DNA of 26,959 nt from a virus. The notes beneath the pieces are model-generated. The model made no database searches. It saw nothing but the letters and a program-made list of their open reading frames with translations, and was not told where the DNA came from. This document shows positions 9,561 through 25,959 of the stretch, in pieces; position 1 is the first letter of the stretch, and the number at the start of each line of letters is the position of its first letter. The translations under genes were made by a program, and so were the position numbers. The stretch lies in IMG/VR virus record IMGVR_UViG_3300008450_000372, positions 1-26,959 of that record. One strand, given 5' to 3'.

Positions 9561-9671
9561 ATGGCAAGAGCAAAAGAAAGATTGAAACCCAAAAGGAGCA
9601 AAAAGTCTAGACTAAAAAATGCTGCAAGAATAAAAGCGAATAACGAAATATTAAAAAAATACGCATCATGA
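9561..9671 (+). CDS. Very basic 36-residue protein
   Basis: A short frame with start ATGGCAAGAGC right after the preceding stop and ending in a TGA that overlaps the next ATG (ATGA at 9668-9671). The 36-residue product begins MARAKERLKPKRSKKSRLK and is about one third Lys plus Arg. The tight coupling on both sides supports it as a real gene. It may bind nucleic acid or an acidic head component, but this is inference from charge only. Confidence 0.6.
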   Translation: MARAKERLKPKRSKKSRLKNAARIKANNEILKKYAS

Positions 9672-9988
9672 TAAAAATAGAAAGTCTTTTGTTTGAGAAT
9701 GCTTTCAAATTGATTTCCACAAAACCGCCGCAGGTTTTTGGCATGAGAAAAGCTGTGTATAAAAGCAAAGACGGTACCACAGTAAGCGTAGTGCATAGCG
9801 ACTATTCTAGAAGCATGAGAACCGGTTCAGCACTAAACGGGTATTCTTCAGTGTGGGAAGGAAACAATTTTATAGACGACGTAGAATTCAAAGGAGAAAA
9901 TCACGTTGAAAAGGCTACTAAATACCTTTTAAAAAAATACGGTATAACCCACGATGTTTCTAAACTAAAAAAATATCAAAGTAAATGA
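9668..9988 (+). CDS. Unknown protein with LxE leader
   Basis: A 106-residue protein starting MIKIESLLFENAFKLI. The first ten residues form a hydrophobic leader ending L8-F9-E10, which fits the (L/I)xE consensus of T4 prohead protease sites. The rest contains a beta-rich segment (KSKDGTTVSVVHSDYSR) and a helical, Lys-rich end. Both ends overlap neighbours by ATGA, so it is part of a translationally coupled string. I do not recognise a family. Confidence 0.65.
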   Translation: MIKIESLLFENAFKLISTKPPQVFGMRKAVYKSKDGTTVSVVHSDYSRSMRTGSALNGYSSVWEGNNFIDDVEFKGENHVEKATKYLLKKYGITHDVSKLKKYQSK

Positions 9989-10224
9989 TTAAATTATTAC
10001 CAATATTAAAAGAGCACGGAGACCAACCGCCTTACATGTATTCTAAGTACGGGTTTGGCTGCCACGTGTGTTCTTACTACGAGCTAAAAGAAGGCAAACA
10101 CTATTGCAACAGTACAGATTACAAGGAACACATGGGAACAGACGAGCTAATTAATCCAGAAACGGGAGAACAGATAGAAGATCCAACTAAGTGGTGTAGC
10201 AATTGGTTCGAACCACTAAAATAA
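9985..10224 (+). CDS. Small four-cysteine protein, HiPIP- or zinc-like
   Basis: A 79-residue protein starting MIKLLPILKEHGDQ, again with an LxE leader (L8-K9-E10). It has four cysteines spaced C26-x2-C29-x11-C41-x29-C71, the last in KWCSNWFE. A CxxC, then C, then C followed by an aromatic pattern resembles the high-potential iron-sulfur protein arrangement; a structural zinc site is equally possible. The gene is coupled to its upstream neighbour by ATGA overlap. Function unknown. Confidence 0.6.
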   Translation: MIKLLPILKEHGDQPPYMYSKYGFGCHVCSYYELKEGKHYCNSTDYKEHMGTDELINPETGEQIEDPTKWCSNWFEPLK

Positions 10225-10243
10225 TAAAAAATAAAATAATGTT

Positions 10244-10813
10244 ATGAGCGAAAACAACCTAAAGAAAGAGTTCTCAAAAAGAGAAGTGCAACGCATGCGC
10301 AACTTAATCACAGGTAAAACAGGTGATAGAACGCAAGTACAAGCTGGTTACGAAAAGAACAAGTACGATCACAAAGAGGGAGACGTTTGGGAAGAGAGCG
10401 GTAAACAATGGACAATAAAGAACGGCATAAAACAAACCATGACCAAATTGGATACGTTTAAAAAGCTGGTTGTACTACCTATATGTTGTCCAGAGTGCAA
10501 CAAACACATGAAGTCTAACGATCTTAACAAAAAAATGTACTCAATTCATGGTAAGTGTTTAGATTGCGTTATAGATATGGAAAGCAAATTAAAGTTGGAG
10601 AACAGGTACGATGACTACGCTAAATCTATACTCAACAACAATCACAACACGTATTTGGAAGACGTAGAATCCGCTTTAGAAGCTTGGTACAACGAGAACG
10701 AGTCGTACGTTACCGAAGCTGGAGAGATCGAAGCTTGGAAGGGTGGGAACAAAAAAGATATATACGATCAAGTAAAACGTCAATTAGACAAGATAAAGAG
10801 CGAGCAACGCTGA
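10244..10813 (+). CDS. Zinc-ribbon protein of unknown function
   Basis: A 189-residue protein. The N-terminal half is basic and polar (FSKREVQRMRNLITGKTGDRTQ). The centre has two CxxC knuckles, in CCPECNKHM and in GKCLDCVIDM, about 23 residues apart, which would bind one zinc ion. The C-terminal part is helical and acidic. It follows the four-cysteine gene by 19 bases with an A-rich leader. The proteins around it look like virion or late proteins, so it may be a minor structural or DNA-binding protein, but no family is recognised with certainty. Confidence 0.6.
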   Translation: MSENNLKKEFSKREVQRMRNLITGKTGDRTQVQAGYEKNKYDHKEGDVWEESGKQWTIKNGIKQTMTKLDTFKKLVVLPICCPECNKHMKSNDLNKKMYSIHGKCLDCVIDMESKLKLENRYDDYAKSILNNNHNTYLEDVESALEAWYNENESYVTEAGEIEAWKGGNKKDIYDQVKRQLDKIKSEQR

Positions 10814-10821
10814 TATTTATA
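10814..10821 (+). promoter_or_regulatory. Candidate late promoter element TATTTATA
   Basis: TATTTATA immediately after the zinc-ribbon gene stop and 20 bases before the ATG at 10842. With T4 late spacing the transcript would start near 10827 and have a leader of roughly 15 bases. Confidence 0.5.
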
Positions 10822-10841
10822 GATAAGCAAATAAAAAACAC

Positions 10842-11660: not shown

Positions 11661-11665
11661 TTACA

Positions 11666-12037
11666 ATGGAAGCAGTAGGACTTTTCTTGGGTACATTGAT
11701 GCAGAGCAGAAACCAAGCCCACGTGTATCACCTTCAAGTTACAGGACCCGGATCTCACGCAGCGCATCTAGCGTTACAAGCGTACTACGAAGGCATCGTT
11801 CCTTTGATAGACGCTTTAGCTGAAGGCATACAGGGACGCTACGGCATAATCAAAGGGTACCAAATGGCAGGAGCGATAAAGGAAGACAACAACTTCGTTT
11901 CTTACTTCGAAACTCTTTGTAAATTCGTTGAAGCGACAAGGAGACAGATACCCCAGGATTCTTACGTTCAGAACCAAGTTGATACAATAGTAGACCTTAT
12001 AGAAAGCACAAAGTACAAACTAAGAAACCTTCAGTAA
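11666..12037 (+). CDS. Ferritin/Dps-like helical protein (DUF5856-like)
   Basis: A 123-residue, all-helical protein. The pattern MQSRNQAHVYHLQVTGPGSH, a later YYEGIVPLIDALAEGIQGRYG and ETLCKFVEATRRQ is reminiscent of Dps/ferritin-like proteins and of a phage family I know as DUF5856. Histidines and acidic residues in the first two helices could bind metal. It starts 5 bases after the previous stop, and its stop overlaps the next start (TAATG at 12035-12039). Iron or DNA binding is an inference from the resemblance. Confidence 0.55.
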   Translation: MEAVGLFLGTLMQSRNQAHVYHLQVTGPGSHAAHLALQAYYEGIVPLIDALAEGIQGRYGIIKGYQMAGAIKEDNNFVSYFETLCKFVEATRRQIPQDSYVQNQVDTIVDLIESTKYKLRNLQ

Positions 12038-12627
12038 TGTGCAATTGCAATAGAATATCGTTACACGAATCTGTGAATAGGCTTCTGGTGTCAGAGGGCT
12101 TGAACTACCACCTTCAAAACAACGTTCCCATCAACGAGAACATATACAGACCTCAGTCTACATCGTTTATGGATCTCATAGTCGAAGTAAGAGGTCTTTA
12201 CGATAGCGGTAAAATAAACTTATCTGAAGAAGATAGAGACTACTTCGAAGGCACAGACATAGGCAAATTTGGACTTTACGAAGGGATAAAAGTACCGTTA
12301 GACTTTCCAATGACGCTAGAGTTTTTGACGGAAGTAAAAAAGAAGTCAAAGAAAAAACAGCCCGAACTAAACAAACCAAAGCGTGGAGGACCCAAAAAGT
12401 TCTACGTTTACGTTAGGAAACCGGGTGGAGGAATAAAAAAGGTTACGTTCGGAGACACAACAGGTCTCAGCGCAAAGATCAACAACCCCGAAGCGAGGAA
12501 GTCCTTTGCAGCAAGACACAAATGCTCTCAGGCAAAAGATAAAACGACACCAAAGTATTGGAGCTGTAGACTACCGAGGTACGCAAGCCTATTGGGTCTA
12601 AAAAGCAACTTCACAGGATTCTGGTAG
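12037..12627 (+). CDS. Conserved phage protein of unknown function, possible structural
   Basis: A 196-residue protein. The N-terminus MCNCNRISLHESVNRLLVSE is leader-like, with L-H-E and V-S-E sites. The C-terminal domain from about residue 115 is the distinctive part: KKFYVYVRKPGGGIKKVTFG, then SFAARHKCSQAKDKT and KYWSCRLPRYASLLGL. It is basic, with a pair of conserved-looking cysteines (HKC and WSC) and a terminal GFW. I have seen this type of C-terminal domain in T4-like marine phages without an assigned function. It is coupled to the upstream gene by TAATG. Confidence 0.65.
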   Translation: MCNCNRISLHESVNRLLVSEGLNYHLQNNVPINENIYRPQSTSFMDLIVEVRGLYDSGKINLSEEDRDYFEGTDIGKFGLYEGIKVPLDFPMTLEFLTEVKKKSKKKQPELNKPKRGGPKKFYVYVRKPGGGIKKVTFGDTTGLSAKINNPEARKSFAARHKCSQAKDKTTPKYWSCRLPRYASLLGLKSNFTGFW

Positions 12628-12682
12628 TCGTTATTTTTAATTCAAATCGATAGTATGGACCCCGACGGGAAACAAACATTAC

Positions 12683-12895
12683 ATGACCTGGAGATCAAAA
12701 TTCTTAAAAAACGTATCAACGACGTGTCTCATGCTGGCGATGTTTTTCAATCCGCTTGGCTTCGACGCACTATTCAAACTAGTGATGGATTGGACCGGTT
12801 CCTATTGGACTACGGATTTGATTTTCTATGGCGTTGCGCTTTCTTTTCTTGGGTTATATTTCTTCTTCAAAAAGCGTTCTGAAAAACATGTCTAG
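12683..12895 (+). CDS. Small two-helix membrane protein
   Basis: A 70-residue protein starting MTWRSKFLKNVSTTCLMLAM. It has two hydrophobic segments (about 11-35 and 48-64) and a positively charged end (KKRSEKHV). The motif NPLGFDALFKLVMDWTGSYW reads as a genuine protein. An overlapping frame from the ATG at 12655 encodes 75 residues, but its composition is less protein-like, so I chose this frame. A degenerate late element TATTTTTA lies at 12632-12639. Two membrane spans and small size would fit a holin-like or head-membrane role, but this is not shown. Confidence 0.6.
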   Translation: MTWRSKFLKNVSTTCLMLAMFFNPLGFDALFKLVMDWTGSYWTTDLIFYGVALSFLGLYFFFKKRSEKHV

Positions 12896-13160
12896 GCCTT
12901 ACATCGATAATCTAGTAGGCAATACAATAACACGTACTTTCGATCAATCAATAGATCCAATAGAGCTGATGTGGCACAGGGACCTAAAAGATAGGACTGT
13001 AACAGCTACGCACAACACAGACTGGAAGGTACAATTGGACAACGAACTGCCTACTGTAATAAAAGACAGCATATTTATACCTAAACTGGCGTGGCACCGT
13101 GTCATAAAAGGCGCAGGAGCGCTGACAGTCAAAATAACCGAGCATGAAACAGCAAATTAA
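12888..13160 (+). CDS. Small beta-rich, cupin-like phage protein
   Basis: A 90-residue protein from the ATG at 12888, which overlaps the previous gene by 8 bases. A longer frame from 12828 exists but reads through the membrane gene. Motifs are ELMWHRDLKDRTVTA, DWKVQLDNELP, and IFIPKLAWHRVIKGAG, which look like strands of a small beta-barrel with a histidine in WHR, similar to short cupins. Proteins of this kind occur in T4-like phages with no known role. It ends overlapping the next gene by 17 bases. Confidence 0.6.
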   Translation: MSRPYIDNLVGNTITRTFDQSIDPIELMWHRDLKDRTVTATHNTDWKVQLDNELPTVIKDSIFIPKLAWHRVIKGAGALTVKITEHETAN

Positions 13161-13428
13161 CGAAGTAAAAAGAATGCAAAAATTAGCTGGTATACTTAAA
13201 GAAAACAGCTACGCAGTCTATCAAGAATTGATTGATGATATAGTAGCCTTAGCGAGTAATAGCCCTTACAGTGAATACGAAGCAACGATAGATTTATTGA
13301 AACAAGAAAAAATAGGAAGCGATGAATTTATAGAGGACCTAATGAAATATGCAAGAGGTGCTAACTATCATGATATAGCAGACGCATGTGAAGATTTGTT
13401 AAGAGGTATACATGCAGAACAAAGCTAA
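13144..13428 (+). CDS. Small helical protein with LxE leader
   Basis: A 94-residue acidic, helical protein. Its N-terminus MKQQINEVKRMQKLAGILKE is a basic amphipathic leader ending L18-K19-E20 before NSYAV, a pattern I associate with Bacteroidetes phage proteins. The remainder (YQELIDDIVALASNSPYSEY and onward) is helical. Its Asp and Asn codons use T-ending forms more than neighbouring genes, a hint of recent acquisition. The gene overlaps the previous one by 17 bases. Function unknown. Confidence 0.6.
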   Translation: MKQQINEVKRMQKLAGILKENSYAVYQELIDDIVALASNSPYSEYEATIDLLKQEKIGSDEFIEDLMKYARGANYHDIADACEDLLRGIHAEQS

Positions 13429-13441: not shown

Positions 13442-13606
13442 ATGATTAGCTTACTCAGCATACTAAAAATGATAACTGAAGAAAAACCTGGACTTTGGGC
13501 AAACATACGAGCAAAAAGAGCTCGCGGTGAGAAGCCTGCTAAGAAAGGGTCAAAAGCGTACAAATCTGCTGTTAAAGCGGCTAAAGAGATAAACAAAAAG
13601 AACTAA
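13442..13606 (+). CDS. Small basic protein with LxE leader
   Basis: A 54-residue protein starting MISLLSILKMITEEKPGLWA. The leader ends I11-T12-E13, then a basic body follows with NIRAKRARGEKPAKKGSKAY and several Lys-Ala repeats. The GLWANIRAKRARGEKPA stretch is a pattern common in T4-like marine phages. The TAA stop overlaps the ATG of the next gene (TAATG at 13604-13608). A basic protein with a cleavable leader could be an internal head protein; this is inference. Confidence 0.65.
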   Translation: MISLLSILKMITEEKPGLWANIRAKRARGEKPAKKGSKAYKSAVKAAKEINKKN

Positions 13607-13950
13607 TGAAAAACATATCCCTACAAGCGTTGGTAAGATCTTTAAGAGAAGAAGTAGATCTTCCAGGTGACCAAGAAAAGATAGACGTAGCAGAACCTAA
13701 AGGCAAGATAACTGCGGCTGACTTCAAGAAGCTTAGATCAATGAAGAAAAAGCATTCTGTAAAAGAAGGTGGAGACCACGAAGTAGCGATGGCTATGAGC
13801 AGCTTAAAAGAGATAGTAAGCAACGCAACACAACTCATGCAAAAGTTAGGCGGAGTAGAAAGAAACATTCCAGGTTGGATTCAAGATCACATAACAAATT
13901 CGGAGAATTTTATCGAACAAGCAAATCAGGGTTTTCACGAAATTGAATAA
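13606..13950 (+). CDS. Probable virion protein with LxE leader
   Basis: A 114-residue protein starting MKNISLQALVRSLREEVDLP. The leader ends L13-R14-E15. The body has GKITAADFKKLRSMKKKH and a C-terminal IPGWIQDHITNSENFIEQ helix. The P-G-W-x-Q-D-x-I shape recurs in small phage structural proteins of Bacteroidetes and cyanobacterial phages. It is translationally coupled upstream through TAATG and is followed by a late promoter-like element. A structural role is likely but not proven. Confidence 0.6.
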   Translation: MKNISLQALVRSLREEVDLPGDQEKIDVAEPKGKITAADFKKLRSMKKKHSVKEGGDHEVAMAMSSLKEIVSNATQLMQKLGGVERNIPGWIQDHITNSENFIEQANQGFHEIE

Positions 13951-13966: not shown

Positions 13967-15907
13967 ATGAATTTGGAAGCTTTAATACTCAAACAAATGC
14001 TGTTAGAACAGGACGAAGAGACAGAAAAAAGGCCCGAAGAAAAAAAGGATTTAACACCTTTCGAAGAGGATCCCATGGGCTTTATACTCAAGAAGTATAG
14101 CACGCTCAACGAGTTGCTTACAGAGCTGATGACAGGTTCTTTTAAAGAGTATTTAGATGCCATATTCATAGTTGCACCCAAACCAACCACCTTTAAAATA
14201 CTATTACACAACGGTCAATACTTTTTTTTAACGTATTTGGGTAAAGCTTACGAAGCGACAATATCTGGTAAGAAGTACTATTTGATGACAACCGGAGAAA
14301 AACAGTTGTGCATGCAAGCAATAGCAAGACTTCTTAGATTCGGTTCTCCGCTAAAAACAAAAGGACCCGAAGGCGCTGAAAAGGGTACAGAAGGAGTAGA
14401 AGACACAAGCGTAGAAGAACCAGAAACCGAAACACCTCCGGCAGAAGGAGGCGAGGAATTAAAAGAGAACAACATAGCCAAAAGAATAATAGAGAGCTAC
14501 ATACTGAAAGAAGAAAAAGCAGAAGAGGATATATTAGCGGCTTTGAAAAAGAACAAAAACGTAGCTTTAATGCAACCAGTAGCTGCAAAGCACCAGGGAG
14601 GTTCAAAATATAAAGTGTATTTAAAAGGAATAAACCCCACAGACAGAAAAGCAAGAGTTGATCTACTAGCTCAATTAACAGGACTTAGCAACGTAAAAGT
14701 TATAAAAAAAGGAGCTAAACTATCTCATGATGATTACGCAGAAGTAAGAGTACCATCTGGAACTTTTAAAGTTTATTTTAAGGGGTCCTCAGAGACAGCT
14801 ACTTCTACAAACGTAAAAGAAGGTCTTGTGATGTCTTTTTATTACAGTAGCATAGAAGAACCTATAACATTAGAAAACTTTGACTCGTCTGTAAAAGCAG
14901 CTATATCAGCCACAAATAGAAATAAAGATATAGACGCTAATCTTAAAGAAGAACTTACAACCTATTTAAGAGGCATACAAAAAAATAAAGACAACGTTAA
15001 AACGCTTAATCAACCACTATCTCAAGCGCTAACGATAAAATCAGCTTATCCTGATGCAAGATTGGTAAGATCTGGCATATTTAACGCGTACAGATCAGAA
15101 GCGCAACAACAATTAAAAATGCCTGCAGATAAGTGGTGTCCTGGAGATGTGTATGTGTTATTAAATTCCGCAGAAGCAGAAACGATATTAGCATTAGCAA
15201 AGGAACAAGACAATCCAGCTTCATTCATAGAGATACTCAACGATGCATTTAACGAAAACTGGGGATCTAAAGAAGCACCTATGACAGCTGTTTCTCTAAA
15301 GTTCGAAAAAGCTCAAGGAGGTAAAGCAAAAGCTTACTTCGAAAAATTTAGAGCAATAAAAGACGACTATAACCTAACAAAGGACGAGATAAACTACAAA
15401 GAAAAGAATTACATAGACGGTATACAGAGGCTAAGAAAAGTGATTCAAAGCAAAGTAAGAGGTGTAAAAGACATAAAATATATTCTACCCGCTGGAGATA
15501 AACTTGAAAAAAACATAGATAAACTTAGAGGTAAATACGCCGCATTAAAAGCGCTTAATTTCTTCTTTGATCAACTTGATAAGTCAGAATACGACGATGG
15601 CCTTGTGGCTCTAGTAGCTTTTGCAATGTCGCTTTCCGACACTTCTCCTGCGTTTTTCAAAGTAGTTGCAAGTTCATCCGGTCAACCAACAAAACCAGAA
15701 ACATACCCTCGCGGTGGATCTTTAGCGCTGTTCATGGAAAACAACAAGATCATGCCTATAGAGATAGTAGACGAACCAAGTTTCGGTGGCCTTAAGATAG
15801 ACATGACAGTTAGTAAAGGCGGAGATCCCTACAGAATAAACCTTGTAGCAAGAAACAACGGTGGCGTACAAGGAACAATAGAAATAGCGAGTGTAAAACC
15901 ACAATAA
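13967..15907 (+). CDS. Large unknown protein, candidate virion component
   Basis: A 646-residue protein. It starts MNLEALILKQMLLEQDEETE, an LxE leader (L12-L13-E14) followed by acidic residues. A first domain reaches about residue 125; a low-complexity acidic Pro/Glu/Gly linker (residues about 126-166) follows. Then a second leader-like segment NIAKRIIESYILKEE occurs at 169-183 (L180-K-E182). The C-terminal part of about 460 residues contains KMPADKWCPGDVYVLLN and a beta-rich end. I do not recognise a fold. Its size, leader and late element suggest a virion or packaged protein. The internal leader may mark a fusion of two former proteins. Confidence 0.65.
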   Translation: MNLEALILKQMLLEQDEETEKRPEEKKDLTPFEEDPMGFILKKYSTLNELLTELMTGSFKEYLDAIFIVAPKPTTFKILLHNGQYFFLTYLGKAYEATISGKKYYLMTTGEKQLCMQAIARLLRFGSPLKTKGPEGAEKGTEGVEDTSVEEPETETPPAEGGEELKENNIAKRIIESYILKEEKAEEDILAALKKNKNVALMQPVAAKHQGGSKYKVYLKGINPTDRKARVDLLAQLTGLSNVKVIKKGAKLSHDDYAEVRVPSGTFKVYFKGSSETATSTNVKEGLVMSFYYSSIEEPITLENFDSSVKAAISATNRNKDIDANLKEELTTYLRGIQKNKDNVKTLNQPLSQALTIKSAYPDARLVRSGIFNAYRSEAQQQLKMPADKWCPGDVYVLLNSAEAETILALAKEQDNPASFIEILNDAFNENWGSKEAPMTAVSLKFEKAQGGKAKAYFEKFRAIKDDYNLTKDEINYKEKNYIDGIQRLRKVIQSKVRGVKDIKYILPAGDKLEKNIDKLRGKYAALKALNFFFDQLDKSEYDDGLVALVAFAMSLSDTSPAFFKVVASSSGQPTKPETYPRGGSLALFMENNKIMPIEIVDEPSFGGLKIDMTVSKGGDPYRINLVARNNGGVQGTIEIASVKPQ

Positions 15908-15957: not shown

Positions 15958-16431
15958 ATGAACATATTCTATTTACACGAAGATCCAATCTTGGCAGCAA
16001 GAGATCTGTGCGATCAACACATTCTAAAAATGGGTATAGAATCTGCGCAAATGCTGTCAACTGCACACTGGGCCACAGGCGGCCAAGCTCCATACAAAAA
16101 AGCTCACCTAAATCACCCATCGACAAAGTGGGTTAGAGAATCAATACAACACTATAGGTGGTTGGTATACCACGCTGAAGAGATATTTAACATATACACA
16201 AAGCATTACGGAAGAGTACACAAAACCCAAGGAATATTAGAGTGGCTAAAACAAAACGAGCCAAAAATACCAGACAACGGTTTTTATGCACCGCCCCAAT
16301 GTATGCCTGATGAATACAAGCAAGAGAACGCTGTAGACGCTTATAGAACGTTTTACGCCCTTGATAAAATAGTCGGTAAACAATTAACTTACAACAGGGT
16401 TAAAGCCAAACCAGAATGGCTATATAGCTAA
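15958..16431 (+). CDS. Pyrimidine dimer DNA glycosylase-like protein
   Basis: A 157-residue protein starting MNIFYLHEDPILAARDLCDQ. Recognisable stretches are HILKMGIESAQMLSTAHWAT, HLNHPSTKWVRESIQHYRWL and MPDEYKQENAVDAYRTFYAL. This is the pattern of a T4-like phage family often annotated as pyrimidine dimer DNA glycosylase or related. It would excise UV dimers. The size is similar to T4 endonuclease V (138 residues), but the sequence family differs, and the catalytic residue cannot be assigned with certainty. It stands alone between a large unknown gene and the spanin-like pair, with its own weak late element. Confidence 0.55.
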   Translation: MNIFYLHEDPILAARDLCDQHILKMGIESAQMLSTAHWATGGQAPYKKAHLNHPSTKWVRESIQHYRWLVYHAEEIFNIYTKHYGRVHKTQGILEWLKQNEPKIPDNGFYAPPQCMPDEYKQENAVDAYRTFYALDKIVGKQLTYNRVKAKPEWLYS

Positions 16432-16462: not shown

Positions 16463-16834
16463 ATGAATTTATTCAATTCTTTAAAGAAGATCAGCGAAAA
16501 GTGGCTAAAACCAGTTTCTTTTATAGTTGGCTGCCTTTTATTTTTGTACATTTTTATTGTAGTATTTACGCCAAAAACAAAAATATCTAAAGAGTCAAGG
16601 AATAAATTGGATTCTATAGAATTGCAAATACAGGCTTTGAAAAAACAGCAAGTAAAACAAGACTCGTTGCTTACAGTTGAATCTAACGAAAGAGTCGCTA
16701 TCGATAAACAGTTAGAAACGGTAAACAATAAAACTACAATCATTAGAGAGTATTACATAGAAAAATCAAAAGAAGTTTCGAACTACAACTCCACACAGTT
16801 AGACTCATTTTTCAGATCAAGATACGGATACTAA
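16463..16834 (+). CDS. Membrane-anchored coiled-coil protein, i-spanin-like
   Basis: A 123-residue protein. The first 19 residues are polar and basic, residues about 19-37 (SFIVGCLLFLYIFIVVF) form one transmembrane helix, and about 80 residues of coiled coil follow (SIELQIQALKKQQVKQDSLL) ending FFRSRYGY. This N-in, periplasm-out topology matches Rz-type inner-membrane spanins. It lies 13 bases before a second small secreted or membrane protein. The end pattern IIREYYIEKSKEVSNYNSTQ is a shape seen in Rz-like proteins of Bacteroidetes phages. Spanin function is inferred from topology and pairing. Confidence 0.5.
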   Translation: MNLFNSLKKISEKWLKPVSFIVGCLLFLYIFIVVFTPKTKISKESRNKLDSIELQIQALKKQQVKQDSLLTVESNERVAIDKQLETVNNKTTIIREYYIEKSKEVSNYNSTQLDSFFRSRYGY

Positions 16835-16847
16835 AAATTAAAAAAAC

Positions 16848-17252
16848 ATGAAAAGCATCTTCATCTCCATATTCACAATTTTTTTATTATCTTTTGCAGA
16901 AAAAGCCAAATCGCAAGACACCATAAAAATACCAGTATTTGTAGCTAAACAGATAGCCAAAGATCTAGTATCTTACGATAGCGCTAGAGCAGAGCTGCTT
17001 TTATCAAAACAGAGGATAGACTTACTAAATTTAAAAGTTGATTCTTACAACAAAAGCATTTCAGTGTATCAAGAGAAAGAGGTTAACTACGTAAATCAGC
17101 TAAATTTATCTGCGGCTAAGTTGGACATTTGGAAGAAAGAATACAACGACTTGGCTAACAGATACAGATCACTGAAGTTAAAAAATACAAGAACACAGAT
17201 AATAGCTGGTGTATTGGTAGGAACTCTAACTTACTTTGCTATAAAACGTTAA
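16848..17252 (+). CDS. Exported coiled-coil protein with C-terminal TM segment
   Basis: A 134-residue protein. The N-terminus MKSIFISIFTIFLLSFAEKA is a signal peptide with a plausible cleavage near SQDT. A central coiled coil (LLLSKQRIDLLNLKVDSYNK) follows, then a C-terminal transmembrane helix IIAGVLVGTLTYFA with a basic end. There is no lipobox cysteine, so it is not a classical o-spanin or u-spanin lipoprotein. Its arrangement (export signal, coiled coil, C-terminal anchor) and place next to the Rz-like gene suggest a partner in lysis. Another role in virion or envelope is possible. The terminase gene starts 6 bases later. Confidence 0.5.
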   Translation: MKSIFISIFTIFLLSFAEKAKSQDTIKIPVFVAKQIAKDLVSYDSARAELLLSKQRIDLLNLKVDSYNKSISVYQEKEVNYVNQLNLSAAKLDIWKKEYNDLANRYRSLKLKNTRTQIIAGVLVGTLTYFAIKR

Positions 17253-17258: not shown

Positions 17259-18851
17259 ATGAGTACACCGAACGTTGATTTAAGGGACAGAATAAAAGAG
17301 GAGTTTGTTAAGTGCGCCTCTGATCCTGTGTATTTCATGAGAAAGTACTACATGATACAACACCCCACAAGGGGAAGACAGCTGTTCGATCTTTACGAAT
17401 TCCAAGAAAAAGTACTTAAGATATACCAAAACCAAGAGTATGTAATAATAAACAAATCGAGGCAGTTGGGTATATCCACTCTAGTTTCGGCTTATTCGCT
17501 ATGGATGATGCTGTTTAATAAAGATAAGAACGTTCTTGTGGTTGCTACTACGCAATCAACAGCAAAAAACATGGTAACCAAAGTGCGATTTGCGTATCAG
17601 AATTTGCCAACCTGGTTAAAAATAGGTCACACTGAAGACAACAGGCTTAGTTTAAGGTTAACAAACGGTTCTCAAATAAAAGCTGTATCAGCCGCCGGTG
17701 ACGCAACACGTTCAGAAGCGGTATCGTTGCTTGTCATAGACGAAGCTGCGTTCATAGATCGTATCGAAGAGATATTTACCGCAGCTCAACAAACTCTTGC
17801 AACAGGCGGTCGATGCATAGCTCTTTCTACGCCAAACGGAATAGGTAACTGGTTTCACAAGACATACACCAAAGCCCAGAAGAAAGAAAACAATTTCACC
17901 CCCGTAAGCTTGCCCTGGAGAGTACACCCAGAAAGAGACGAGACTTGGAGAGAGCAACAAACAAAGGAGTTGGGCGTAAGAAACGCAGCACAAGAGTGCG
18001 ATTGCGATTTCGCCACTTCAGGAAACAGTTACATAGAACCGGACATACTAACCCACTACGAATTGAACACGGTGAGCGAGCCTTTCGAAAGACGTGGAAT
18101 GGACAAGGCCCTTTGGATTTGGGAATATCCCGATCCAGTGAAACACTACATGTTGATAGCTGACGTTGCGCGTGGAGACGGAAGCGACTATTCTGGCTTT
18201 CACGTAATAGACATAGAAACAATAACCCAAGTCGCAGAGTACAAAGCGCAAATAGATACAAGAGAGTACGCGAACATTCTTTTAGCGACAGCGAACGAAT
18301 ACAATCAAGCTTTATTGGTAGTAGAAAACGCAAACATAGGTTGGGACGTAGTTCAAACCCTAGTTGAAAGGAATTACACAAACTTGCACTACGGTCACAG
18401 GGCAGACAGCGACGGTAGCTTTGAAAAATACGTAGACAGATTCGATAGAGCTGCAGGACTAGTTCCAGGGTTCAGTACAACTCAAAAAACAAGACCGCTT
18501 GTACTAGAAAAAATGAGAGATTTTATAGAAAACAAAGTGTGTACAATAAGATCTGTAAGACTGTTAGAAGAGTTGCGTGTATTTATATGGAAGAACGGTA
18601 AACAACAAGCGATGCAGGGGTACAACGATGATCTAGTGATGAGCTTCGCAATAGGCATGTACCTTAGAGAGACTTCTTTGAGATTCAAAAAAACAATGAA
18701 CAACTTGACTAGCGCTACGATAAACAACATAAGTAAAACTAGTCAACCAAACTCTTACTATAACCCAAACAGTTACTATAACGATCCTTGGAGCATGAGC
18801 ATAGCAACTCCACAAGGAAGCGAAAATATAGACATTAGCTGGTTAATATAA
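17259..18851 (+). CDS. 17: Terminase large subunit (gp17)
   Basis: A 530-residue protein with the two domains of T4 gp17. In the ATPase domain the adenine and Walker A region is NKSRQLGISTLVSAY (Walker A about S67-T74), Walker B is LLVIDEAAF (E162 as catalytic glutamate) and the coupling motif is ALSTPNG. In the nuclease domain acidic residues D302 (IADVARGDGSDYSG), E356 (LLVVENANIGWD) and D457/D458 (GYNDDLV) form the RNase H-like metal site. It pumps DNA into the prohead and cuts the concatemer. It is slightly shorter than T4 gp17 (610 residues). The portal gene begins 4 bases downstream, as expected for packaging partners. Confidence 0.92.
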   Translation: MSTPNVDLRDRIKEEFVKCASDPVYFMRKYYMIQHPTRGRQLFDLYEFQEKVLKIYQNQEYVIINKSRQLGISTLVSAYSLWMMLFNKDKNVLVVATTQSTAKNMVTKVRFAYQNLPTWLKIGHTEDNRLSLRLTNGSQIKAVSAAGDATRSEAVSLLVIDEAAFIDRIEEIFTAAQQTLATGGRCIALSTPNGIGNWFHKTYTKAQKKENNFTPVSLPWRVHPERDETWREQQTKELGVRNAAQECDCDFATSGNSYIEPDILTHYELNTVSEPFERRGMDKALWIWEYPDPVKHYMLIADVARGDGSDYSGFHVIDIETITQVAEYKAQIDTREYANILLATANEYNQALLVVENANIGWDVVQTLVERNYTNLHYGHRADSDGSFEKYVDRFDRAAGLVPGFSTTQKTRPLVLEKMRDFIENKVCTIRSVRLLEELRVFIWKNGKQQAMQGYNDDLVMSFAIGMYLRETSLRFKKTMNNLTSATINNISKTSQPNSYYNPNSYYNDPWSMSIATPQGSENIDISWLI

Positions 18852-18855: not shown

Positions 18856-20787
18856 ATGGCAGAAGAACAAAAAAAACCCGAAAACAATCTATTTAGCGCT
18901 CTGAGAAGACTATTCTCTACCGATGTAATCATTCGTAACGAAGGCGGTGGAATGGTAAAAGTCATCGATAGCGATAAGATACAAACGTCAGGCGTAATAC
19001 AGACGAACAGTCTTATAGATAGATTCCATAAAGTCTACACAACGTCAACAGCGTACGGTGTTAACATGAACTTGGCGCAAAACTACCAATCAGCGAGAGT
19101 TCAGATATACGCAGATTACGACGCGATGGACACAGACGCTATCATCGCTTCCGCGTTGGACATCATCGCTGACGAGTGTACGTTGAAGAACGAGCAAGGA
19201 GAAGTGCTACAGATACGGTCTTCTGACGAAAACATCCAAAAGCTTCTTTACAACTTGTATTACTCTATACTAAACGTAGAGTTTACTCTGTGGTCTTGGA
19301 TAAGAAACATGTGTAAATACGGTGATTTTTACATAAAACTGGAAATAGCAGAGGGTTTCGGAGTGTACAACGTGATCCCGTTCTCTGCCTACAACATAGT
19401 TAGACAAGAGGGGTACAACATAAAAAACCCAAGCGAAGTTAGATTTAAGTACGATCCAAACGCAGCTATCGCATCTACCACAGGTTACGGCTCAGCTTTC
19501 AACAACCAAGATACTGGCATCTTCTTCGATAACTACGAGATGGCGCATTTCAGACTCACAGGCGACGTTAACTACCTGCCTTACGGTAGATCTTATTTGG
19601 AGCCAGCAAGAAAGCTGTTTAAGCAGTATACGCTTATAGAAGACGCCATGTTGATTCACAGGATAGTAAGAGCCCCAGAAAGACGAGTGTTCTACGTTAA
19701 CGTTGGTGCTATACCTCCAAACGAAGTAGAAAACTACATGCAAAGGATGATCAATAAGATGAAAAAAACTCCTTTGATAGATCCCCAGACAGGCGATTAC
19801 AACCAAAAGTACAACGTGCAAAACATGCTCGAGGACTACTTCATACCTGTAAGAGGCAACGATCAGGCCACAAGAATAGACACAGCGAAGGGTCTGGATT
19901 ACAACGGTATCGAAGACGTTGCGTACTTTAGAGAGAAACTTTTTGCAGCGTTGAAGGTACCAAAGGCTTTCATGGGATACGAAAAGGATTTGACAGGTAA
20001 AGCGACCCTAGCAGCAGAAGACATACGATTTGCAAGAACCGTAGAAAGGATACAAAGGATCATAGTTTCAGAATTGACTACGATCGGTTTGATCCACCTA
20101 TACGCTCACGGATACACGAACGAATCAGCTGCCAACTTCACAATATCGTTAACAAATCCGTCTATCATATACGATCAAGAAAGGATTGCGTTATTCAAAG
20201 AAAAGATAGACTTAGCAAGACAAGCGATGGAAGGTCAATTGTTACCAAGAGACTTCATATACGATAAAGTATTCCACTTCTCTGAAGATCAATACCTAGA
20301 GCTGGAAGACATGATACTAGAAGACCAAAAACGTCTATTCAGATACAAACAAATAGCTGAAGAAGGCAACGATCCATCAGAAACAGGACAAGCGTTCGGT
20401 ACTCCTCACCAATTGGCCAGTCTTTACGGAGGCAAAGGTGATATGCCACTTGACGTACCGACAGGATACGATGAAAATAAACCTAAAGACGAATACAAAT
20501 CCCCAGGCCGTCCCCAAAAGCACAAATCTATACGTGGCACAGACGCTAGTTCTTTTGGAAGAGACGCAATGGGTACTTACGATTTAAAATCAAACGCTGA
20601 AACAGGAGAAGATAACATGAAACCTGAATACCGTGGAGGTCCTTTAGCTTTCGAAAACTCTAACAGCGAATTTTACAAAAACAAAAAAATGTTAGATTCA
20701 ATGTTTTCTTCAAAATCAAGAAAAACAAAATTATTTGAAGAGAGCGATATATTAAACGAAGATAACATATTAACAGATCCGGAGTAA
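18856..20787 (+). CDS. 20: Portal protein (gp20)
   Basis: A 643-residue protein. Residues about 12-60 (LFSALRRLFSTDVIIRNEGG and onward) are the usual start of marine T4-like gp20. The wing and stem are recognisable by HRIVRAPERRVFYVNVG, LEDYFIPVRGND, GLDYNGIEDVAYFREKLFAA and FMGYEKDLTGKATLAAED. The portal forms the dodecameric ring at the head vertex on which terminase and the neck dock. It is about 120 residues longer than T4 gp20 (524). The extra C-terminus (from about 520) is polar and disordered, with GDMPLDVPTGYDEN and an L-F-E site near the end, which could be a prohead protease target. Confidence 0.92.
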   Translation: MAEEQKKPENNLFSALRRLFSTDVIIRNEGGGMVKVIDSDKIQTSGVIQTNSLIDRFHKVYTTSTAYGVNMNLAQNYQSARVQIYADYDAMDTDAIIASALDIIADECTLKNEQGEVLQIRSSDENIQKLLYNLYYSILNVEFTLWSWIRNMCKYGDFYIKLEIAEGFGVYNVIPFSAYNIVRQEGYNIKNPSEVRFKYDPNAAIASTTGYGSAFNNQDTGIFFDNYEMAHFRLTGDVNYLPYGRSYLEPARKLFKQYTLIEDAMLIHRIVRAPERRVFYVNVGAIPPNEVENYMQRMINKMKKTPLIDPQTGDYNQKYNVQNMLEDYFIPVRGNDQATRIDTAKGLDYNGIEDVAYFREKLFAALKVPKAFMGYEKDLTGKATLAAEDIRFARTVERIQRIIVSELTTIGLIHLYAHGYTNESAANFTISLTNPSIIYDQERIALFKEKIDLARQAMEGQLLPRDFIYDKVFHFSEDQYLELEDMILEDQKRLFRYKQIAEEGNDPSETGQAFGTPHQLASLYGGKGDMPLDVPTGYDENKPKDEYKSPGRPQKHKSIRGTDASSFGRDAMGTYDLKSNAETGEDNMKPEYRGGPLAFENSNSEFYKNKKMLDSMFSSKSRKTKLFEESDILNEDNILTDPE

Positions 20788-21683: not shown

Positions 21684-22844
21684 ATGCAATTTAACAACCA
21701 GTTTGCTACAATAAAACTGAGAGAAACCATCGCTGAGAACCAGGTTATCTTCTCGATAGACGACCAAAAGATAGATGATTTGTTTTCAAACGAATTTAGA
21801 GGCGATGTAGAATACGTACAAGACGGTTCAGACGTTTACTACGTGATTGATCAAAACGACTTTGAGAAGTTTGTAGACTACGTACAAAGCGTAGGATTGG
21901 ATTCGAACAACATACACGTTCACGAATACTTTAAAGAACAGGGTAACGTTACAGGAGGAGGAGAAGCGTATTTACCGGGGTTGGACGTTCCAGAAAAAAA
22001 GTACAAAGGCCAAAACGAAGGAGACGGGTACGAAAAAGTAAAGGGATTCAGAGCGGGCCACACTCCGGATAGAGGCGGTTTCCAATACAAAGATTTGTGG
22101 GACGTTAACGAAGAGTACGAAACAGACAAAAAGCTTAAAGTAACTCTTAAAGGTAACATAAACTACAACAAGATAGGCGACGTAACAGACGTTTCGAAAG
22201 ACGGAAAGTACTACACACTACAATTCAAAAACGGGAAAACAGCTATATATCACCAATCAGACTTAACTAAACCCGCTGCACAAAAATCTTTTGAAGAGAA
22301 ACCAAGACTAGACATAAGCGAAGAGGATATACAAGAGGCGTACGTACCAGACAACATAAAGAATTTTGCTAAAAGAAAACAGATTACTGGCATTGTAAAT
22401 CAAGTAGCTCGTTGGGCTGAAAAAGCAGGTAAACGCATTGTTGGTGGAACAGCTGTTGGTAAAAATTATAGTACATTAATACTAGATTTAACTTATCAAG
22501 GCGGAGAAGTACGCATCAATACAGATGATGAAACTATTGAAGTTAATGGAGATTGGGTTGACAGCTACCAGGGCTTTGTAGCTGCTTTAAGCGATGAATC
22601 ACTAAACGAAAACTACCACCGCTTCAAGAAAGAGACTGTAACCAGAAGCAAAGAGCAGCAGATGCACGAAGCCATTAAATTGGTGCGCAAGAAGCTGTAC
22701 GAAGCTGAGAAGGTTATGGATTACGTAAACACAATGAAAGAAGAGCTTGGACTACGCGAATACAAGGGTCACACAAGCAAACTGATGGAGAAGCTTCAAG
22801 TATCCATCTCCGAGATATACAAAAAATACAAATCAATAAAGTAA
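21684..22844 (+). CDS. Unknown head-region protein with mosaic interior
   Basis: A 386-residue protein. N-terminus MQFNNQFATIKLRETIAENQ contains an I-A-E site at 16-18. A central segment KVTLKGNINYNKIGDVTDVS suggests a small SH3/KOW-like beta-barrel. Residues about 228-305 (KRKQITGIVNQVARWAEKAG and onward) are encoded with clearly different codon choice (see findings). The C-terminal 80 residues are a coiled coil (EQQMHEAIKLVRKKLYEAEK, then VNTMKEELG), with an L-Y-E site. The gene lies between the portal and protease genes, so a prohead core or scaffold-associated role is plausible; no family is certain. Confidence 0.6.
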   Translation: MQFNNQFATIKLRETIAENQVIFSIDDQKIDDLFSNEFRGDVEYVQDGSDVYYVIDQNDFEKFVDYVQSVGLDSNNIHVHEYFKEQGNVTGGGEAYLPGLDVPEKKYKGQNEGDGYEKVKGFRAGHTPDRGGFQYKDLWDVNEEYETDKKLKVTLKGNINYNKIGDVTDVSKDGKYYTLQFKNGKTAIYHQSDLTKPAAQKSFEEKPRLDISEEDIQEAYVPDNIKNFAKRKQITGIVNQVARWAEKAGKRIVGGTAVGKNYSTLILDLTYQGGEVRINTDDETIEVNGDWVDSYQGFVAALSDESLNENYHRFKKETVTRSKEQQMHEAIKLVRKKLYEAEKVMDYVNTMKEELGLREYKGHTSKLMEKLQVSISEIYKKYKSIK

Positions 22845-22845
22845 C

Positions 22846-22974
22846 ATGGCAAAATCAAAATCATCAGGAGATAGCCGTAAAGTAACTTTCGGTAAAAGAA
22901 AAAAAGGAAGCTCACAAAAATCACACAACAAACACGATAGAAAAGAAAAAATGTATCGTGGACAAGGAAGATAA
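22846..22974 (+). CDS. Very basic 42-residue head-region protein
   Basis: A short frame immediately after the 386-residue gene (start ATGGCAAAATC). The product begins MAKSKSSGDSRKVTFGKRKK and ends MYRGQGR; about 40 percent of residues are Lys, Arg or His. The KVTFGKRKKG and YRGQGR motifs are, to my knowledge, shared by small proteins at this location in related phages. A basic peptide in the prohead gene cluster may interact with the acidic scaffold or with DNA. Its position resembles that of T4 gp68 or gp67, which are also small core components. Confidence 0.7.
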   Translation: MAKSKSSGDSRKVTFGKRKKGSSQKSHNKHDRKEKMYRGQGR

Positions 22975-22982
22975 TATTTATT
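22975..22982 (+). promoter_or_regulatory. Candidate late promoter element TATTTATT
   Basis: TATTTATT starts directly after the TAA of the basic 42-residue gene and ends 3 bases before the ATG at 22986. The spacing again implies a leaderless transcript if it acts like a T4 late promoter. Confidence 0.4.
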
Positions 22983-22985
22983 GAT

Positions 22986-24953
22986 ATGAACATAACCAAA
23001 CTATACCAACAGCTACAAGAGGGTAAAACGTCCCGCGATTACTTCGTTAAAGAAGCACGCAGACAATTTCCACAGTTCATCAGTCCAGTGACTTCTTTTA
23101 AAGACGCTGTGAACATACTAAAAGGAAAAAGACTAGTATCAGAGAACGTAACCAAAGAGGTAAGCGGTGCATTCTTCGATGCTCCAACTTTTAAAAACGA
23201 ATTACAAACCACCGAAGAATCTTTACAGGAGATAAAGGGCGTAGACGAAGAACTTCTTGATATAGTGCTTAAGTACGTTAAAGATCCTGACGAAGCTATA
23301 CAGTATATAAAGAGGGGAATGCCGGATTGGTTAGAAGCTAATCTAGATAGAGACGAAGATTATAAGAATTATTTAAAAAGTACGAGAGGAGTAGATCTAT
23401 ACCCCGGAAACATGGGAGATGAGATGTCTGCTCCTAGAGAAGGAAAAATAAACGAAGCCCACAAACTTGACACAGAGCAGATATTGGATCGCATGTCTCC
23501 TTACGCTGTTAGAAAGGGCATAGAGTTAGAGTTGAAGAAAGAAAAGGTGATAGACAACACTACACTCAATAAAATCAAGACCCGTGTCGCTAAGAAGCTT
23601 CAAAAAAATAAAAACGCTTACGAAGACCAAGTTTTCTCAAACGTTAAAGAAATAGACAAAAAAGATAAGCAATTAGAAACAAAGGAAGTAACCCAAGAGT
23701 TGAACGATAAACACAACTCAATGAAAAAAATTAAGGGGTACAAAGAAGAGAAGGCAAACACAAAAGCTTCTAAGAAAGAAAACAGAAAGGGAAAACCTAA
23801 AGGCGTAAAAGTGATGCCTGACAAAGGCGTTACTGGATCTGAAAAGATATTAAAAGAAGACATTCAGGATAGAGCAGACGCTATTAATAGGTTCGCTAGA
23901 CTAGTTAAATCTAAAAACATCGAAGATATAAAAAACGAATTAGAAGCGATAGTACAGTTTCCAGAACAGAGCAGTATTACGCCTAGTGAAGCAACAAAGA
24001 TAATTAAAAAATATTGCACACCAGAAGAAGCTCAGCAGATATTAGACGACATAAATCAACCAATGACCGATCCAGCTGGTGGCAGCGGTTTATCTTCTCA
24101 TCTTGAAGAGGATGAATTTAGAGCACCAACAAACAAACCGTTGGTTAACAAAGAAGAGGTGGACGACCAAGAATTGGAAGCATTAAAAATGAAAGTTATA
24201 GGTTGGTATAAAAAAAATTATACTAATTCAAAATCACCGCTCGTTTCAAAATGGGCAACTGAATTTGAGGCAGACGTAAACAGAGCTACAAACAAACAAG
24301 AAATCAAACAAGTCGTAGATAGCATATTGATGGGAGATACAACCACCGCTATGACTAACTTGGGTTTAAACGAAGACAAAGCGGAGGTGTTGAACAATAT
24401 AAAAGAGTTTTTACAAGAGTACAGCTACTTGGAATACCACCAAGGCATGGAAGTAAACACACCAGACGGTCCCGGAGTAGTTAAAGAAATAATGGGCGGT
24501 ACGTTAACTATAGAGTTGGAAGACAGCGCTTTAAGAGACTATCAAATGAACGTAATAAACAAAGCAACAACAGATAGTAAAGAACAACCAAAACAAACAC
24601 CGCAAGCCGCAGCAGTCGACAAAGACAAAGAAGATAGGGACGCAGCATTCTCAAAGTTTCCTTTTGGCAACCTTGGCAGCGTAAAGGGCCCAGACACTGG
24701 AATAAAGAAAGAGGCCTACAAGAACATGACACACGAAGAGAAACTTAAAGCGATAATGGAAAAAGTTCAAGCGATGGAAGAGGGCGAAAAGAAACACAAG
24801 GCTTTGGACATTGTAAAGAAGAAGTTGAAAGAGGCTACAAAAATCCACGCAGGAGGAGAAGTTTTTTTTAAGAAAGATTCAGAAGTACCAGGATTTGAAG
24901 CTGATCTAAAATCAGCAGGAGTTAAATACACAAAAGAGAGAGTAGCATCATGA
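22986..24953 (+). CDS. Large unknown head-assembly region protein
   Basis: A 655-residue protein. It starts MNITKLYQQLQEGKTSRDYF with an L10-Q11-E12-G site that fits the gp21 consensus especially well. It continues with EARRQFPQFISPVTSFKDAV, a pattern recurrent in T4-like Bacteroidetes phages. Helical segments (HKLDTEQILDRMSPYAVRKG), a Lys-rich linker and a small beta segment YHQGMEVNTPDGPGVVKEIM (KOW/SH3-like) follow. It ends with a helical stretch and GGEVFFKKDSEV. It ends in an ATGA overlap with the protease gene. Role unknown; a prohead core or processed virion protein is likely from its leader and neighbours. Confidence 0.65.
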   Translation: MNITKLYQQLQEGKTSRDYFVKEARRQFPQFISPVTSFKDAVNILKGKRLVSENVTKEVSGAFFDAPTFKNELQTTEESLQEIKGVDEELLDIVLKYVKDPDEAIQYIKRGMPDWLEANLDRDEDYKNYLKSTRGVDLYPGNMGDEMSAPREGKINEAHKLDTEQILDRMSPYAVRKGIELELKKEKVIDNTTLNKIKTRVAKKLQKNKNAYEDQVFSNVKEIDKKDKQLETKEVTQELNDKHNSMKKIKGYKEEKANTKASKKENRKGKPKGVKVMPDKGVTGSEKILKEDIQDRADAINRFARLVKSKNIEDIKNELEAIVQFPEQSSITPSEATKIIKKYCTPEEAQQILDDINQPMTDPAGGSGLSSHLEEDEFRAPTNKPLVNKEEVDDQELEALKMKVIGWYKKNYTNSKSPLVSKWATEFEADVNRATNKQEIKQVVDSILMGDTTTAMTNLGLNEDKAEVLNNIKEFLQEYSYLEYHQGMEVNTPDGPGVVKEIMGGTLTIELEDSALRDYQMNVINKATTDSKEQPKQTPQAAAVDKDKEDRDAAFSKFPFGNLGSVKGPDTGIKKEAYKNMTHEEKLKAIMEKVQAMEEGEKKHKALDIVKKKLKEATKIHAGGEVFFKKDSEVPGFEADLKSAGVKYTKERVAS

Positions 24954-25585
24954 GCAAACAACTTTTAATAGAGCATTCTTTTTTTACACCAACTATTAAC
25001 TTACACGAGGGATTAAAAAACCAAAACGGTAACCTTATAGTTAGGGGTAAAGTGCAAGCTAGCGACAAACCAAACGCAAACCGCAGAGTGTATCCTTACG
25101 AAACTCTGTTCGAACAGGTTAAAAAATACGTCGACGGTCCTATAAAAGAGAAGCGTGCGCTCGGAGAACTGGATCACCCAGAGAGCTCTATCATAAATTT
25201 GAAAAACGTTTCTCACAACATACTGGATCTTTGGTGGGAAGGTAAAGACGTTTTCGGTACTATCGAAATACTGCCTACTCCCTCTGGTAACATACTCAAA
25301 GAGCTTTTTTTAAACAACATAACTGTAGGCATATCCTCAAGGGCTTTGGGTTCAACCACTCCCATGGCAGAAGGCTTAGTGAAAGTTGAAGAAGATTTGG
25401 AATTGATATGTTGGGACTTTGTTAGTCAACCCTCAACCTACGGTTCTTACATGAAACCTGTTAACGGTTTAAGAGAGTCTTACGACGCAACAATCATAAC
25501 TCAAACGCAAAACAAATACACAAACGTTAACAATTTGATGAGAGACATCATATGTGAAATGTCGGGTGTATGTTGCATAAACTAA
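24950..25585 (+). CDS. 21: Prohead core protease (gp21)
   Basis: A 211-residue serine protease of the T4 gp21/U9 type, a fold shared with herpesvirus assemblin. H76 lies in LGELDHPESS and the serine in VGISSRALGS (S129 or S130); both match the catalytic region of T4 gp21 (212 residues). It cleaves scaffold, capsid and internal proteins at (L/I)xE sites during head maturation and destroys itself. An L6-I7-E8 sequence near its own N-terminus (MSKQLLIEHS) could be an autocleavage site. The ATG overlaps the stop of the preceding gene. Confidence 0.92.
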   Translation: MSKQLLIEHSFFTPTINLHEGLKNQNGNLIVRGKVQASDKPNANRRVYPYETLFEQVKKYVDGPIKEKRALGELDHPESSIINLKNVSHNILDLWWEGKDVFGTIEILPTPSGNILKELFLNNITVGISSRALGSTTPMAEGLVKVEEDLELICWDFVSQPSTYGSYMKPVNGLRESYDATIITQTQNKYTNVNNLMRDIICEMSGVCCIN

Positions 25586-25590
25586 TAAAA

Positions 25591-25959
25591 ATGAAACTAT
25601 TTGAAATATTAAGCGAAGAGTTTTCAGCAAACGATCCGGTGTTAATGGCTCTTAGAGCTGCTAAAGATACTAGACAAAAAAACTTAAAAGCCTACGCCGC
25701 TAGTATGAAAAAAAGGGTGTATGGAAAGAAGAGAGAAGACCTCGTAGACAGATTAGAAACTCTTAACGATGATCTTTTGGATTTGTATAAACAAAAAAAG
25801 CAAGCGTTTATAGACATGGAATTAGACGCGGGTGAGAAAGGAAGTTCGTGGAGCGACCAAGATGCTAACGAATACGGTGATATGCTAAACAGCATTGATG
25901 AAAAAATAGACTCTTTGATAAAAACTAGACAAAAGATTGAAATAGCTTTATCGTACTAA
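25591..25959 (+). CDS. Small helical protein with LxE leader
   Basis: A 122-residue protein from the ATG at 25591; a longer frame from 25570 overlaps the protease gene and is less likely. It starts MKLFEILSEEFSANDPVLMA, with L7-S8-E9. The body is a helical hairpin or coiled coil (LETLNDDLLDLYKQKKQAFI, then SIDEKIDSLIKTRQKIEIAL). It lies between protease and scaffold genes and is followed by a terminator. It may be a prohead core component. The family is seen in related phages but has no function I can name. Confidence 0.65.
   Translation: MKLFEILSEEFSANDPVLMALRAAKDTRQKNLKAYAASMKKRVYGKKREDLVDRLETLNDDLLDLYKQKKQAFIDMELDAGEKGSSWSDQDANEYGDMLNSIDEKIDSLIKTRQKIEIALSY

Follow-up and report, generated by a model that had tools for sequence, protein, structure and literature searches.

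We analyzed a 26,959-base stretch of viral DNA (IMG/VR virus record IMGVR_UViG_3300008450_000372, positions 1 to 26,959; hereafter, the window) that contains the head region of a T4-like myovirus, and found that many of its proteins begin with a short leader ending in L-x-E or I-x-E. These leaders are very probably capsid-targeting sequences (CTSs) of the T4 type, that is, pro-peptides cut off by the prohead protease gp21, here portable and much expanded in number, and they are accompanied by probable cargo polyproteins processed by the same enzyme. The motif lies near the head genes, has a marked residue specificity, is exchanged between proteins and is positioned at domain junctions, and from it we infer docking, cutting, packaging and injection. 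The CTS principle itself is already known from T4, and a review foresees that it lets T4-like phages take in varied proteins (PMC9026906). What is new here is how many leaders there are, that they fall into families, that these are traded among unrelated proteins within an environmental clade, and that cargo polyproteins are predicted. The open-access literature about head proteins, targeting sequences and this phage group, a scope that leaves many subscription papers outside, yielded no description of these four features.

Enrichment and residue specificity of the leader motif

Mutagenesis of the T4 internal protein IPIII has assigned residues 4 and 7 to targeting and residues 8 and 10 to processing, and gp21 is reported to cleave after L/I-x-E (PMC9026906). 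From the IPIII mutagenesis we set beforehand, with no tuning, a strict motif, [LIVMFYW]xx[LIVMFYW][LI]xE, with hydrophobic residues at -6 and -3, L or I at -2 and E at 0, the E lying at residue 7-26 of the protein. Six of the 26 head-region genes in the window carry this motif at the N-terminus, compared with 0.7 expected at the rate seen in shuffled sequences (0.027; binomial p=5.6e-5) and with 7 of 194 internal sequence windows (3.6%; Fisher p=0.0015). The initial annotation had proposed a comparison with shuffled sequences and non-late genes, and had noted that the primase and the gp47-gp46 protein lack such leaders; indeed, none of the seven upstream genes carries the strict motif.

The closest cultured relatives of the window are Flavobacterium phage vB_FspM_immuto (MW353175; hereafter, immuto; terminase 56% and gp21 43% identity) and Microcystis phage Mel-JY01 (terminase 52%, gp21 48%). 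In immuto, the strict motif is present in 13 of 39 head-module genes (p=4e-9) against 8 of 193 genes elsewhere, which corresponds to background (6.1 expected). We also grouped 2,587 called proteins from related IMG/VR loci by their mature parts into 175 families, and a leader was found in 26% of these, whereas internal windows gave 1.6% and shuffles 3.9% (p=9e-24). Starts assigned by the gene caller agreed with those in GenBank for 185-198 of 209-213 genes. The strict motif was found in 0% of the terminase, portal, primase and gp47-46 clusters of these loci. The initial annotation had cautioned that the terminase also contains a similar motif near its N-terminus; this motif, R-I-K-E, has Arg at -3, and the 0% applies to a terminase cluster of 131 members.

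Short hydrophobic, Glu-rich N-termini might be thought to yield L/I-x-E by accident, given that the loose three-residue motif occurs near the N-terminus of about 20% of ordinary genes. However, the strict motif is 7- to 16-fold rarer in the shuffled and internal controls, pairs of unrelated proteins share leaders far more often than internal segments (see below), and a terminal D shows no enrichment. These results refute an origin by chance or composition, to which we assign almost no probability, and confirm that the leaders are real and well above chance. In contrast, the picture of the leader proteins as small and basic was not supported, since their median length is 155 amino acids (aa) against 133 aa in the rest, and a mature isoelectric point above 8 is found in 44% against 39%.

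When the rest of the motif was fixed, E at the end was enriched 14.9-fold, whereas the values for D, Q and K were 1.0, 1.8 and 1.2. When E was fixed, the residues enriched at -2 were L (19-fold), I (7), V (4.6) and M (4), with no enrichment of F, A, Y, W or S. Among the motif matches, and thus conditional on the motif, L was enriched 7.5-fold at -6, and I 7.3-fold and L 4.2-fold at -3. The end residue G was also 5-fold up, an excess that is probably carried by the KIAG stretch within leader family I, described below. The preference for E at the end and for L, then I, at -2 is that of gp21. Given that E is needed, with no enrichment of D, Q or K, and that F, A, Y and W are excluded at -2, the pattern reads as a protease site, and because other residues cannot replace E, it is more than a hydrophobic helix alone. 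The leaders are N-terminal and hydrophobic or amphipathic, as would also be expected of membrane-insertion or export signals. However, their hydrophobic stretches are very short and broken by charges, and by eye they contain no long hydrophobic core, signal-peptidase site or lipobox-like site. Moreover, their last residue is Glu, they are concentrated around the head genes, and the relatives' major capsid protein bears one, so that a role in membrane insertion or export is highly implausible.

The presence of gp21 and a scaffold in the window was borne out. The gp21-type prohead serine protease (S77) is encoded at 24950..25585 (+ strand; PF03420, E=5.1e-26) and agrees by eye with its homologs in the catalytic region, GEL(N/D)HP and (V/I)SSRxLGS. 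It contains candidate cuts (marked by arrows) in its pro-segment at E20 (INLHE↓G) and C-terminally at E203 (DIICE↓M), and 64 of 65 gp21 homologs have [LIV]xE with the E at 12-28. The acidic gp22-like scaffold (26145..26957, + strand, extending past the window end) has candidate sites EEILAE↓L and DEILAE↓L, and among 70 homologs the strict motif occurs 0.51 times per 100 aa against 0.14 in shuffles, which is 3.6-fold. The portal, which is uncleaved in T4, shows no enrichment (0.11 against 0.13 shuffled per 100 aa). The major capsid protein of close relatives, identified by a homolog that matches Gp23 with E=9e-77, begins MANLVQSLLSE↓SA, which is comparable to the N-terminus of T4 gp24 (MAKINELLRE↓ST), a cleaved protein (PMC5694885). 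Thus, the proposal in the initial annotation that the leaders are CTSs cut by gp21 is supported at the sequence level by the head-region enrichment, the IPIII-like geometry, the use of E but not D and of L, then I, at -2, and by the motif on gp21, the scaffold and the relatives' major capsid protein but not on the portal or terminase.

Exchange of leaders and sites at domain junctions

Among 172 representatives, 226 protein pairs with unrelated mature parts have a common leader, whereas internal segments gave 0-2 such pairs. Family I, MKKxLNEVRQLQKIAGILKE, which includes the window protein at 13144, is common to 24 unrelated proteins; MIKLxDILKE is found on 11, MKLKDILNE on seven and MADNFDFKKYLTE↓NKLG on six. 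Since they are swapped between unrelated proteins, the leaders behave as a portable signal. We also considered whether these N-termini are alike owing to a nucleotide-level signal, such as the context of the translation start, or to a recent duplication of DNA, because the leaders sit at gene starts and recur within one genome. However, identical leader amino acids are encoded by identical codons at a rate of 0.52-0.55, only slightly above the 0.43-0.47 expected at random, and therefore the conservation is of protein sequence, not of DNA. Internal junctions, which are distant from start codons, also have the motif. The codon comparison contradicts this explanation, which we consider very improbable.

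A leader-like sequence is also found at the other end of some proteins. Among stand-alone relatives of the metallopeptidase domain (window 8663-9559; L174, L173 and L156), some carry the C-terminal tail YESESLKLGNILKEIKRK and others a similar tail without E, GVKLNVLKQLIK, which suggests that these are C-terminal targeting tags. For the motif in general, the C-terminal excess (3.2% against 1.7%) comprises too few cases to claim.

In the window, the protein encoded at 6997-8658 consists of two domains with an internal leader, MKESSISLLNLLTE↓GG, between them (7594..7635, + strand). The first domain is NMNAT/NadD-like (fold search, probability about 0.99). The second is RNA-ligase-like, based on weak fold-search matches and on motifs resembling KxDG and EGVV that we noted by eye; no helpful match came from a PDB profile search. 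In relatives, these domains occur separately or with other partners. The junction has [LI]xE↓GG in all 40 distinct fusions, with L or I at -3 in 39 and Y in one, and x is its most variable column. A stand-alone ligase-like copy (L232) begins MNLIKILLSE↓GGTGGHMAHPF. In a predicted structure of the window protein, the one case modelled, residues 193-218 between the folded domains are disordered, with predicted confidence (pLDDT) below 50. A GGNVF-type domain follows LLNEGG in the L225 and L121 fusions but begins MGGNVF in immuto (106221, L082), where the start falls exactly at the predicted mature N-terminus. This fusion of NMNAT/NadD-like and RNA-ligase-like domains is rare among cultured phages. 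A tblastn search with the ligase-like domain against named phages gave no match at 1e-5 and, at E=0.01, one to Mel-JY01 alone, which suggests that this domain is itself rare in cultured phages.

Similar junctions were found in other proteins. A candidate site, SLGMLME↓D, lies between metallopeptidase and 5'-nucleotidase domains (9029..9049, + strand) and is L/I-x-E in the closest homologs; in immuto, the 5'-nucleotidase is a separate protein with the leader MKKVMGNLADLLLE. In the 386-aa protein that starts at 21684, a bare site, DESLNE↓NY, precedes the C-terminal module (22593..22610, + strand). This module occurs in 54 non-redundant, unrelated upstream contexts, in which only L/I at -2, E at 0 and a frequent Asn at -1 are conserved. 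An 835-aa protein in another locus (L094:5009-7513) joins domains that are separate in the window, namely those of the 13442 and 13606 proteins and the 21684 C-terminal module, and it has an N-terminal leader. An unbiased scan of alignment boundaries showed a peak for the Glu of [LI]xE at the boundary, with 89 cases where 29 were expected (Poisson p about 1e-19). A near-invariant E column in one alignment (A2) proved to be a selection effect and was not used. In these alignments, L/I-x-E stays conserved right at the domain boundary even where the sequence upstream is unrelated. Given the position of this site between the domains of fused proteins, gp21 probably cuts cargo polyproteins into single domains.

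It is also conceivable that the leaders serve as uncut docking tags, bringing proteins to the scaffold or to some other complex of the phage, with the terminal E belonging only to the docking helix. In T4 IPIII, the targeting and processing residues are separable (PMC9026906), and the metallopeptidase tails without E would suit such a role. However, this leaves unexplained why E is needed, why neither D, Q nor K is enriched and why F, A, Y and W are excluded at -2. In addition, junction sites without a leader helix retain [LI]xE alone, and gp21, the scaffold and the relatives' major capsid protein bear the same motif. We therefore regard docking without cleavage as unlikely.

Proposed mechanism and comparison with known systems

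If the leaders are CTSs cut by gp21, an amphipathic N-terminus of 9-26 residues, with hydrophobic residues at -6 and -3, would dock the precursor on the assembling scaffold core. Once activated in the prohead, gp21 would cut after the E of L/I-x-E; the leader would depart, and the mature protein would stay in the head with the DNA and then probably be injected with it. The same cut at junctions would free single domains.

Several points weigh against this reading. We found no virion proteome of any clade member, immuto and Mel-JY01 included, in the open-access literature, so that packaging and cleavage are inferred only. The GG that follows the E at the ligase junction may belong to the fold, and that junction alone is therefore no proof. 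The L/I-x-E site has been lost in some homologs of the 8663 fusion, and many of the boundaries in the unbiased junction scan are noise. Comparisons with other phages are also mixed. SPO1, a negative control without an S77 protease, shows a marginal excess of leaders (9 against 4.8, p=0.05), whereas Syn9 shows none and Mel-JY01 only a weak enrichment, despite their S77 proteases. HTVC008M has a weak excess. On the other side, crAss001, which also lacks S77, has 2 matches against 2.7 expected, and T4, the positive control, has 17 strict matches against 7.1 expected, with the MKTYQEFIAE internal proteins recovered. S77 is present in all clade members tested. Leaders are found in 9 of 34 genes near gp21 against 8 of 190 elsewhere in the close relative G001, in 11 of 33 against 9 of 179 in immuto and in 5 of 34 against 7 of 161 in G003; G002 has 21 genome-wide against 6.3 expected, although less clustered. 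Given the excess near gp21 in G001, immuto and G003 and its weakness or absence in other S77 phages, strong expansion of the leaders near gp21 is a property of the clade.

The T4 CTSs of IPI, IPII, IPIII and Alt (PMC9026906, PMC5694885, PMC3012670) are likewise N-terminal pro-peptides of about 10-20 residues ending in L/I-x-E. They share the hydrophobic residues equivalent to IPIII 4 and 7, the S77 protease encoded with the head genes and the use of one leader on otherwise unrelated proteins. However, each genome of the clade has about 10-20 candidates with a leader, and in immuto and G001, unlike in T4, these gather near gp21; the clade has at least four leader families; and leaders or bare sites also occur at internal domain junctions. 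The T4 core proteins gp22, gp67 and gp68, which gp21 fragments (PMC9026906), also have several L/I-x-E sites per protein, as in the enriched gp22-like scaffold of the clade, but their pieces mostly leave the head, whereas in the clade the pieces would be retained as cargo in the form of folded enzyme domains. In phiKZ and SPN3US, homologous proteases (gp175 and gp245, respectively) also cut after Glu, and many internal head proteins, including ejection proteins, are found (PMC5694885, PMC10052503). However, these phages use A-x-E or S/A/G-x-E, whereas the clade uses L/I-x-E, with A and S at -2 not enriched. Their pro-peptides are mostly longer than 100 residues; the clade leaders are short, being enriched with E at 7-26, the range searched, and longer ones were not sought. 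Immuto shares its head gene order and leader families with the window. Its leader proteins are mostly labelled hypothetical, its record showed no annotation of leaders, and the open-access literature searched yielded no paper about this phage.

Pfam and PHROGs left most leader proteins without a name. Those with a recognizable fold are an NMNAT (Mel-JY01, leader MGKLINILLSE), the ligase-like domain (L232), a PNK/zeta-like kinase (L134), the 5'-nucleotidase of immuto and a member of a phage metallopeptidase family. The internal proteins of T-even phages counter first-response host defences (PMC9391042, PMC3012670), and phages are reported to restore NAD+ as a counter-defence (PMC12774641). Based on these reports, part of the cargo might reasonably be guessed to act in counter-defence, although this is only a guess. 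More broadly, the cargo of the head might be enzyme polyproteins with NMNAT-like, ligase-like, kinase, 5'-nucleotidase and metallopeptidase domains. Cut by gp21 within the capsid, these would bring the host, at infection, a ready-made set of tools for counter-defence or for the repair of nucleic acids and NAD, with domains swapped freely between phages because each module has its own address label and cut site. We put this scheme forward tentatively and lean somewhat against it.

If the leaders are indeed gp21-cut CTSs, a rule readable from the genome would predict which proteins of a large uncultured phage group ride in the head and are injected, and where they are cut. It would also supply candidate functions, such as early host takeover and counter-defence, for dozens of hypothetical protein families. 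The T-even principle of internal proteins directed against host defences (IPI and IPIII; PMC3012670, PMC9391042) would extend to phages of Bacteroidota and freshwater, with an added polyprotein layer that we did not find described for phage cargo in the literature searched. The reuse of one cut site between fused enzyme domains and of one label on many unrelated proteins suggests a large injected head cargo in this phage and its uncultured aquatic relatives. If the leaders are of this kind, they could also serve as additional tags with which to load phage heads with proteins.

Sites and neighboring genes in the window

All nine N-termini listed in the initial annotation were found at the expected positions. 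Six of them (9668, 9985, 13144, 13442, 13967 and 25591) fit the strict geometry, whereas those at 13606, 21684 and 22986 fit [LI]xE only, yet their homologs retain it. All of the following sites are on the + strand. The first two strict matches are MIKIESLLFE↓N of a 106-aa protein (9668..9697) and MIKLLPILKE↓H of a 79-aa Cys-containing protein (9985..10014), the homologs of which (L121, L131, L145 and L154) retain a leader of the MIKL-type family. The leader MKQQINEVKRMQKLAGILKE↓N of a 94-aa protein (13144..13203) belongs to family I and aligns with proteins of L028, L029 and L080 at residues 1-21 only. A 54-aa basic protein begins with MISLLSILKMITE↓E (13442..13480), and its mature domain is embedded in larger proteins of L094, L108, L121 and L159. 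In the 646-aa protein, MNLEALILKQMLLE↓Q (13967..14008) heads the first module, and most of its divergent homologs keep a leader-like N-terminus ending in an I/L-L-x-E-type motif. An internal leader, IAKRIIESYILKE↓E (14474..14512), precedes its second module, and homologs in L091, L134 and L124 have leader-like sequence at this module boundary. The last strict match is MKLFEILSE↓E of a 122-aa protein (25591..25617), with MIKLTELMNE in its L093 homolog; 25591 is the second in-frame ATG of its open reading frame, an earlier one being at 25570.

Among the other three, the leader MKNISLQALVRSLRE↓E of a 114-aa protein (13606..13650) contains L-x-E, and its counterpart in G001, MKNVSLQSLVSLLRE, meets the strict geometry. 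The 386-aa protein begins with MQFNNQFATIKLRETIAE↓N (21684..21737); of 11 distinct N-termini among its homologs, most have L-R-E-x-I-N-E↓GR or something similar here. The 655-aa protein begins with MNITKLYQQLQE↓G (22986..23021), with L-x-E↓G in most homologs (DLLEG or QLQEG). Beyond the list in the initial annotation are the gp21 N- and C-terminal motifs, the scaffold sites and the internal sites at domain junctions. Two further internal candidates are FMDLIVE↓V in a 196-aa protein (12166..12186), which is a strict match, and TLEFLTE↓VKKK (12313..12333), which is L-x-E in the closest homologs and precedes a basic C-terminal domain that is joined to other partners in other loci.

The primase starts at 2837 and the gp47-46 fusion at 3820, both upstream of the head region. 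Many small genes without a named product lie between this fusion and the terminase (starting at 17259), and the portal starts at 18856. At least 561 relatives of gp21 were found in viral contigs. Between the 21684 and 22986 genes, a very basic 42-residue protein without a leader (22846-22974) is kept in 62 loci. Two small proteins directly 5' of the terminase (16463-17252), with an N-terminal hydrophobic segment and a coiled-coil-like character, have homologs in about 10 loci and are possibly lysis or envelope proteins. The protein at 11666-12037, which has no leader, matches phrog_858, named starvation-inducible transcriptional regulator; that it is Dps-like is a guess. A pyrimidine-dimer-glycosylase-like protein, also without a leader, is encoded at 15958-16431 (phrog_624, PF03013). 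In immuto, the annotation of MW353175 at 18.6-37.0 kb (L084) gives a 7-deazaguanine DNA modification pathway (FolE, QueC/D/E/F and DpdA).

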